This document shows, piece after piece, positions 26,969-43,915 of a stretch of DNA of 44,049 nt. Source of the DNA: Thermodesulfobacteriota bacterium (GTDB lineage: Bacteria > Desulfobacterota_D > UBA1144 > Nemesobacterales > CSP1-2); NCBI GenBank assembly GCA_036397855.1, contig DASWID010000193.1, positions 1-44,049 of the forward strand. Reading direction: 5' to 3'. Within the stretch, counting starts at the first letter, position 1, and the number at the start of each line of letters is the position of its first letter. Under the pieces are notes generated by a model, which was given only the letters and a program-made list of their open reading frames with translations, ran no database searches and had not been told where the DNA came from. Both the position numbers and the translations under genes were made by a program.

Positions 26969-27034
26969 CGGGTAGGTCACGAGTCTTGCTCGTGACTATT
27001 GCTTAGCCCACCAGCAAGACTGGTGGGCTACCCG
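26969..27034. repeat. 66-bp three-stem palindromic element, loop uninterrupted
   Basis: Outer arms CGGGTAG (26969-26975) and CTACCCG (27028-27034) enclose two hairpins: GTCACGAG/CTCGTGAC (26976-26983, 26989-26996) with loop TCTTG, and TAGCCCACCAG/CTGGTGGGCTA (27004-27014, 27020-27030) with loop CAAGA. The outer arm shares CTA with the second stem. It lies between cofH and the FAD oxidoreductase gene. The same element at 33271-33359 has 23 extra bases in the second loop. Confidence 0.8.
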
Positions 27035-27062
27035 TATGGCGGACAGGAACCCGTGGCTACCC
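27026..27062. repeat. 8-bp direct repeat flanking 21 extra bases
   Basis: GGCTACCC occurs at 27026-27033 and again at 27055-27062, with 21 bases between. At the related locus near 33351 there is only one GGCTACCC, and the shared downstream sequence starts directly after it. The arrangement looks like a small insertion with duplication of eight bases, or a repeat expansion. Confidence 0.5.
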
Positions 27063-27230
27063 TTATTCGAATTAATTCCTGAAAAAGAAAGGTTTCTCCT
27101 TAAAGTCGACTCGAATGAAGAGACCGTTTCTTTATTCATTATCTTAAAGTTTCGTAGAAAAAGATGTTGGTTTAAGATGGCTTTGATATTTCTGTGTTTC
27201 CCTCAAATCTATGGTTTTAACTTAGCTATG

Positions 27231-33112: not shown

Positions 33113-33176
33113 GTCATAGCAATGACATTTACCTCAAAGTCATTGCGAAATTTGCGAAGCAAATTGAAGCAATCTC
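33113..33176. repeat. gtcattgcg...gaagcaatctc repeat pair
   Basis: A perfect GTCAT-AGCA-ATGAC hairpin (33113-33126) is followed by a unit from 33139 to 33176 that starts gtcattgcg, has an inner near-palindrome around gcgaaatttgcg, and ends gaagcaatctc. A truncated inverted piece, agattgcttcgtc, follows at about 33195. The family is also present at 919-952 and, more diverged, 137-170. Confidence 0.55.
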
Positions 33177-33270
33177 TTCTTTTTTTCCTGCTTTAGATTG
33201 CTTCGTCCCCTTCGAATTAGCTCAGGATGGGGACCGGAGCGCCACCAATATCGGAGGAGACTGATAAATT

Positions 33271-33359
33271 AGGGTAGGTCACGAGTCTTGCTCGTGACTA
33301 TTGGTTATCCCACCGGCAAGCCTGTCCTGAGTTTGTCGAAGGGACTGGTGGGCTACCCT
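33271..33359. repeat. Three-stem palindromic element with 23-base insert in its second loop
   Basis: The first 50 bases (33271-33320) match 26969-27018 with four differences, and the last 16 (33344-33359) match 27019-27034. Between them, exactly in the loop of the second hairpin, are 23 bases (33321-33343) that start cctgtcctgag and end tcgaaggg. These are a ttcgac-aactcagg type REP unit. About 35 bases downstream of both copies also match, so the host repeat is longer than its palindromic part. Confidence 0.8.
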
Positions 33360-33543
33360 TAGTCGCATTATTTCTTGAAAAAGAAAGATTTCCCCGTTGG
33401 CCGCAATTGTAGATGTTAGATATTTCGTGTACAAAATCCTTACAATTTCTCGAATAGATTTATTTTCATTAATTCTTTTCAGACTGAAAAGGGCTTGAAC
33501 GGCATTCGAAAGATTGCGTTAGGAAAATCAGAAACGAAGACGT

Positions 33544-43572: not shown

Positions 43573-43684
43573 TTATTGCTGGATAGGTCACTAGTCCCCT
43601 CGACTAAGCCTGTCGTGAGCTCTGTCGAACGGCTCGTGACATTAAATAAACCCTAAGAGAATAATAAATCCGTTCACCCTGAGT
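43567..43684. repeat. Tandem repeat copy 1: hairpin with 36-base insert in its loop
   Basis: The host hairpin arms are GTCACTAG (43587-43594) and CTCGTGAC (43633-43640), the same first stem as at 26976-26996. In place of the loop bases TTG are 36 bases (43597-43632) of a cctcgac...gtcgaacgg type REP unit, itself imperfectly palindromic. The copy then reads attaaataaaccctaagaga and ends in ccgttcaccctgag. It begins in the last codons of the preceding small gene. Confidence 0.75.
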
Positions 43685-43723
43685 AGTGAGCCCTGAGTTT
43701 GTCGAAGGGTCGAACTATCGAAG
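43670..43723. repeat. 54-base REP-like unit, inverted copy of 792-846
   Basis: It reads ccgttcaccctgag at its left and cgaactatcgaag at its right. As the reverse complement it aligns with 792-846 at about six mismatches and one gap. It overlaps the end of tandem copy 1. Confidence 0.65.
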
Positions 43724-43766
43724 GGTGTACTTTTTCAAATTCGAAGAAAAACATTTCATATACTAG

Positions 43767-43885
43767 AATTGATTATTATTCGGGTAGGTCACGAGTCCCC
43801 TCGACTAAGCCTGTCGTGAGCTCTGTCGAACGGCTCGGGACATTAAATAAACCCTAAGAGAGTATCAAATCCGTTCCCCCTGAGC
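43767..43885. repeat. Tandem repeat copy 2: hairpin with 36-base insert in its loop
   Basis: It starts 200 bases after copy 1 and is nearly identical over about 118 bases. The host arms are GTCACGAG (43788-43795) and CTCGGGAC (43834-43841), with the same inserted unit. The mismatch in the right arm here and in the left arm of copy 1 shows both copies have since diverged. It ends in a shorter REP remnant, cctgagctgggtcgaaggg. Confidence 0.75.
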
Positions 43886-43915
43886 TGGGTCGAAGGGTGA
43901 TGTTTATAAGTGAGC

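Follow-up and report, generated by a model that had tools for sequence, protein, structure and literature searches.

Short dispersed repeats of 21-27 nt that are apparently mobile and lie inside other repeats are said to have been described in cyanobacteria by Elhai in 2008; their sequence is not known to be related to that of the unit described here. Tagged REPs are another precedent. In T. roseum, GTAG-23 is found within CCGSSCC(n3,4)GGSSCGG, a target with hundreds of copies in the genome, and both GTAG-15 of A. variabilis and CGTC-1 of H. neapolitanus occur as dimers (Di Nocera 2013; PMC3733652). In Haloquadratum, the SMR-A elements prefer the near-terminal palindromes of IS605/PATE elements; they have no transposase and make no target duplication, and their mobiliser is unknown (PMC3119063). 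In Coxiella, the REP GTAGGTTGGGCTGAGCTTGCGAAGCCCAAC flanks a RAYT (Nunvar 2010; PMC2817692).

The window that we analyzed is a stretch of 44,049 nucleotides from a Thermodesulfobacteriota bacterium. It contains an empty and a filled copy of one host element, at 26969..27034 and 33271..33359 (both on the + strand). The original prediction was that these copies align without gaps over their first 50 and last 16 bases, and that the second has exactly 23 extra bases in a five-base loop. Direct alignment bears this out: the coordinates are exact, and the copies differ by 4 substitutions over the first 50 bases and by 1 over the final 16. The insert (33321..33343, + strand) reads CCTGTCCTGAGTTTGTCGAAGGG and is set as CAAG|CCTGTCCTGAGTTTGTCGAAGGG|A, between CAAG (33317-33320) and A (33344); the counterpart of the insertion point in the empty copy is 27018^27019. 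The insert consists of CCTG + TCCTGAG-TTTGT-CGAAGGG, and its 17-base core is at 33326-33342 (+ strand). Another related empty site for this unit is L116 (2/32 mismatches). The homology of the two loci extends past the host element (27055..27099 on the + strand, family D4, matches 33351-33395), and the first copy carries 29 extra bases before 27055. The repeated CTG flanking the insert suggested a target-site duplication, but other hosts show none.

The host had been described as a three-stem element. As single-stranded DNA, the empty copy is indeed predicted to fold into a cloverleaf (z = -7.3; 0 of 200 shuffles were equally stable), but it really consists of a pair of GTAG-headed hairpins in inverted orientation, whose heads (GGGTAG and CTACCC) pair with each other to make the third stem. 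Its sequence, its fold, and the RAYT-flanking copies of the same REP all identify it as a BIME, with GTAG 5' of each hairpin, many copies, and inverted pairs. The first REP (26972-26996) is GTAG+GTCACGAG-TCTTG-CTCGTGAC. The second, on the minus strand, is GTAG+CCCACCAG-TCTTG-CTGGTGGG; its stem is 27005-27014 / 27020-27029 and its loop is CAAGA (27015-27019). The filled copy is the same BIME, 23 bases longer.

The insert belongs, as had been predicted, to a REP-like family that is present elsewhere in the window: when up to 3 mismatches are allowed, the 17-base core has 3 matches in the window, with 0.28 expected. Genome-wide (3.1 Mb), it has 61 matches, versus 2 for the reversed pattern (up to 2 mismatches), and CCTGAG-N5-CGAAGG has 57 versus 1. 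The unit comprises the head CCTG and the hairpin xCCTGAG-N5/6-CGAAGGx', with a conserved tandem G.A mismatch at the apex. Among 54 head-bearing units, 27 are 23 nt long and 27 are 24 nt long. Across 146 distinct CTGAG-N5/6-CGAAG cores, the outer bases covary: those of pair 1 match in 127 cores (at most 98 after shuffling), and all four types of pair occur; those of pair 2 match in 90 (at most 79 after shuffling). At the apex, 98 sites have G.A/G.A and 6 are fully Watson-Crick, so the motif can form only on the CTGAG strand. Because of this apex, the 23-mer makes only a weak hairpin if Watson-Crick pairs alone are counted (0 kcal/mol as DNA), and the nearest-neighbour model finds no stable structure for it. 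Sheared G.A pairs of this kind are known to be stable. REPs are short, extragenic palindromes in high copy; the unit has approximately 60 genome copies and a covarying stem, but its Watson-Crick stem is weak, and its head is CCTG and not the GTAG or CGTC of tagged REPs. Our search of the literature for the literal sequence of the unit found none.

The window holds other members of the family. One core, CTGAG-CTAATT-CGAAG, is at 33210..33225 (- strand), 45 bases upstream of the filled copy. (Just upstream of the filled copy, at 33120-33205, there is also an imperfect palindrome of the ATTGCGAA..GCAAT class, with arms at 33155-33171 and 33189-33205.) A nested unit is at 43675..43727 (+ strand) and reads CACCCTGAG[TAGTGAG[CCCTGAG-TTTGT-CGAAGGG]TCGAACTAT]CGAAGGGTG, with an outer loop of 35 nt (43684-43718). 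Its simple counterpart, CCGTTCCCCCTGAG-CTGGGT-CGAAGGGTG, has a 6-nt loop and is at 43871..43899 (+ strand), in a neighbouring direct repeat (43581-43683 / 43782-43884; 103 bases, 93% identical, spaced by 201). At corresponding places, then, the repeat has CCGTTCCCCCTGAG-CTGGGT-CGAAGGGTG versus CCGTTCACCCTGAG-[35 nt, two nested hairpins]-CGAAGGGTG. Filled GTAG hairpins are also found in this direct repeat.

We then examined empty and filled sites in a 1.44 Mb sample of the genome, which favours contigs that carry units and which contains the 54 head-bearing units. Each unit was excised in silico and a contiguous empty homologue was sought, with at most 5/32 mismatches. With exact excision of 23 or 24 nt, 26 of the 54 units have a related empty site (17 of 40 outside tandems). 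If the excision boundary is altered by 3, only 0-1 empty homologues are found, and random excisions gave 2 of 150; since the test allows mismatches, shifting both boundaries together by 2 still passes, so the test sets the length and inspection sets the exact position. The rule also holds in G008, which is from another family of the same order: 5 of 32 units there have an empty homologue, versus 0 with altered boundaries and 0 of 150 for random excisions. The site GGGAACGCATA^TATGCGTTCCC has two empty and two filled copies; GGAAACCTAA^AGGTTTCC has one empty copy and three filled ones, which are related; and TATTGTCACGAGCAAG^ACTCGTGACCTACCCA differs from its empty homologue at 1 of 32 positions. 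Altogether, at least six hairpin families serve as hosts, with empty and filled pairs. The palindromes entered include GTAG-REPs with several stems, ATTGCGAG..CGAAGCAAT elements, and the unit's own relatives; in G027, the site CTGAG-CTTG^T-CGAAG makes the unit's own hairpin the target. AG is immediately 5' of the insert in 29 of 54 units, and in 25 of 32 in G008 (54-78% versus a background of 6%). In every pair that we inspected, the target was not duplicated and lost no bases. Insertion is therefore 3' of a short conserved target without target duplication, as for IS200/IS605-like elements. These comparisons within the genome show that copies of the unit are placed precisely inside other palindromes, with no duplication or loss of the target, and usually 3' of AG. 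The insert behaves like one of the smallest mobile pieces of DNA known.

The original prediction spoke of precise movement into a cruciform loop, and it would have been weakened if units were found just as often outside hairpins. Exact insertion into the centres or loops of palindromes was found, and many units are in loops, but 14 of the 54 follow another unit in tandem, and one host, CCCCCTTT..AAAG(A)G^GGGATT, is entered in its 3' arm. (At 20 loci in the sample from G008, CCCCCTTT..AAAGGGGGATT elements carry a unit in their 3' arm, at one fixed position.) Most of the self-nested copies in this genome have no CCTG head, and they take the place of the loop instead of simply entering it. A test of flank-hairpin geometry gave only a moderate signal (13 of 54 at a score of 6 or more; permuted mean 3.2, maximum 9), since a good many of the stems are short, belong to shared families, or include G.A; in G008, the geometry was not above that of permuted flanks. 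As these statistics are weak alone, we used the related-empty-site test instead. Given the tandems, the arm target, the headless self-nesting, and the weak geometric test, "always in loops" is too strong; the data support a unit that is preferentially inside palindromes, at an exact site.

What moves the unit? For the host REP, a mobiliser of the TnpA-REP type is present. RAYTs were recognised by Pfam PF01797 / NF047646, with a cut-off of 80 bits for NF047646. Two 151-amino-acid proteins, L073 and L074, match this family of REP-associated tyrosine transposases (123.5 and 117.6 bits), and each lies between inverted copies of the host GTAG REP, as is usual for a RAYT-associated REP. (The genome has approximately 36 matches to the host element.) Two other RAYTs, L063 and L072, accompany a different GTAG-REP, GTAGGAGCGGCTTCCAGCCGC, and beside each of them is a REP copy whose loop holds either one unit or several stacked and nested ones. 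At L072:1622-1688, three nested units are stacked in the loop of the GTAG-REP that adjoins the RAYT gene. More broadly, G000 has 17 Y1_Tnp matches, mostly RAYT-like proteins or larger (220-345 aa) MARPLR-type proteins; the latter have no obvious REPs nearby.

For the unit itself, a search of this genome and its relatives found no mobiliser. A TnpA-REP had been suggested, and the NF047646 RAYTs are flanked by the host GTAG REPs, but none is flanked by the 23-base unit: no RAYT locus that we inspected, in this genome or its relatives, has a unit on both sides. Genomes G019, G023, and G027 (86-95% complete) have no Y1_Tnp match, despite 19, 29, and 54 cores, and in G008, with 87 cores, the sole RAYT is tied to a different REP. 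As correlates of unit copy number, IS110 (PF01548) and TnpB (PF07282) showed no consistent pattern, and at the two IS110 loci that have a unit in the vicinity, the proximity looked coincidental, as no unit is at the end of the IS.

We lean towards the view, by a modest preference, that the unit is a non-autonomous 23-24-nt repeat joined into the loops of palindromes by HUH/Y1-type strand transfer. The target hairpin would be extruded as single-stranded DNA, on the lagging-strand template or as a cruciform, and one strand of the unit would be joined to its unpaired loop. An enzyme would act in trans, by the type of strand transfer used by IS200/IS605 and RAYT enzymes, and repeated insertion into loops, including the unit's own, would give nested palindromes. 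Among the genomes compared, no insertion that separates close strains was observed. Because unit counts do not track Y1_Tnp and no RAYT that we inspected is flanked by the unit, we infer this mechanism indirectly, from the site preference, the lack of duplication, the hairpin apex, and the Coxiella RAYT-flanking REP with the same apex.

How well do other explanations fit? It would be very surprising if the filled form were ancestral and the copy at 26969 had lost 23 bases. Nothing beyond the two-copy comparison speaks for this; the unit also sits in unrelated palindromes, and the host REP of the window (GTAG host 1) is mostly empty, with empty-to-filled ratios of 34:10 (strict scan) or 36:8 (another pattern). 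A predominance of filled copies would have counted against the original prediction, and instead the empty copies are in the majority, which implies that the filled state is derived. Another explanation is that there were few insertions, and that the host REP's own RAYT then copied the filled REPs as composites, or gene conversion spread them. The number of filled loops would then overstate the unit's movement. Filled host-1 copies do share the junction CAAG^A and have nearly one orientation, and a RAYT of the host REP is present. Yet the filled copies are in several stem subfamilies that are also found empty, and they have many different unit loops (and four identical TTTGT-loop units are in four different stems). 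Units also occur in unrelated palindromes with different junctions. On this evidence, we consider composite copying unlikely as the explanation.

Two further explanations dispense with a Y1 enzyme, and we rate both as somewhat less probable again. Dyads might be targeted by another enzyme that reads palindromic double-stranded DNA, such as a guide-RNA IS110-type DEDD enzyme or some unknown recombinase. Insertion sequences from several families are known to target the axis of REP palindromes (PMC1525189), several genomes rich in units have no Y1_Tnp match, and there are IS110 genes in G000, G001, G005, and G027. But IS110 was not detected in the unit-rich G008, G019, and G023, the two IS110 loci near units have no unit at the IS end, and the conservation of the G.A apex suggests that a single strand is recognised. 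Alternatively, template switching by replication at stalled hairpins might copy a nearby hairpin into the loop of another, with no transposase. This would account for the loop-centred and self-nested copies, for arms that are duplicated in step (CCTGAG[xCCTGAG..CGAAGGx]TCGAAGG), and for the unit-rich genomes without Y1. However, microhomology would not be expected to give fixed boundaries of 23 or 24 nt, the same 5' CCTG head whenever hosts are unrelated, or a preference for AG^.

One more copy of the core is in an rRNA gene. L001 (G000:C12) is a complete 16S gene (Rfam, 1549.6 bits). Helix 44 has the tip GCTAACC-CCTGAGCTTGTCGAAGG-GGAGGC both in G000 and in G004, which belongs to another genus of that family. 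CCTGAGCTTGTCGAAGG is identical to one of the genome's common unit cores and stands in place of the helix 44 tetraloop. G005, from the same family, has the ordinary tip GCTAACC-CGCAAG-GGAGGC. Across the class, the tips are UUCG, GCAA, GAAA, or similar, and ordinary tetraloops are what the family's other genera have. (L182 and L222 agree at 100% identity over 2903 bases, which identifies G004 as Desulfobacterota bacterium AH_259_B03_O07.) When GTDB contigs were scanned for long tips of helix 44 between these flanks, three records were found, and only AH_259_B03_O07 has the unit. The 16S copy has no CCTG head and stands in for the loop, and so represents a different type of event from the 23-mer insertions. 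Its presence in two genera may be due to convergence or to one shared ancestral event. Such a case would mean that a REP-like repeat has entered an RNA gene that is essential, at a tip tolerant of it. A broader account, which we offer as no better than tentative, is that a 23-24-nt hairpin with a G.A apex moves genome-wide into loops by means of an enzyme that is not a resident RAYT, and that this includes the core in a functional 16S gene. If so, movement via another enzyme would have altered the tip of helix 44 in a functional 16S gene.

The unit is a natural experiment on REP-like movement, with defined ends, defined hairpin targets, and many empty and filled pairs, so the old question whether hairpins serve as single-stranded targets can be tested directly. 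It resembles the GTAG- and CGTC-tagged REPs in that small REPs lie within other palindromes, but there, one palindrome type per genome was mentioned in passing as the target; the unit has a CCTG head and no tag, uses at least six families of target (GTAG-REPs and the unit itself among them), and has boundaries that are fixed by empty and filled pairs (PMC3733652). As with SMR-A, there is no transposase, no target duplication, and a preference for palindromes, but SMR-A is archaeal, approximately 110 bp long, and has inverted terminal repeats, while the unit is 23-24 nt with one hairpin and a head, and so is not an SMR-A element (PMC3119063). Insertion of IS110, IS3, and IS4 elements at REP axes is alike in using the axis of palindromy, but those are full insertion sequences with a transposase rather than a 23-mer (Tobes and Pareja 2006; PMC1525189). 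The host repeat is like those of the REP/RAYT systems, with a GTAG head and a hairpin flanking RAYT genes, and the Coxiella REP has the same CTGAG-loop-CGAAG apex as the unit; unlike those REPs, the 23-mer lacks GTAG and was not seen flanking a RAYT (PMC2817692). Insertion of REP-like sequences into palindromes was known before; what sets this case apart is the size of the unit, the number of target families, the exact empty sites, the self-nesting, and the rRNA copy.
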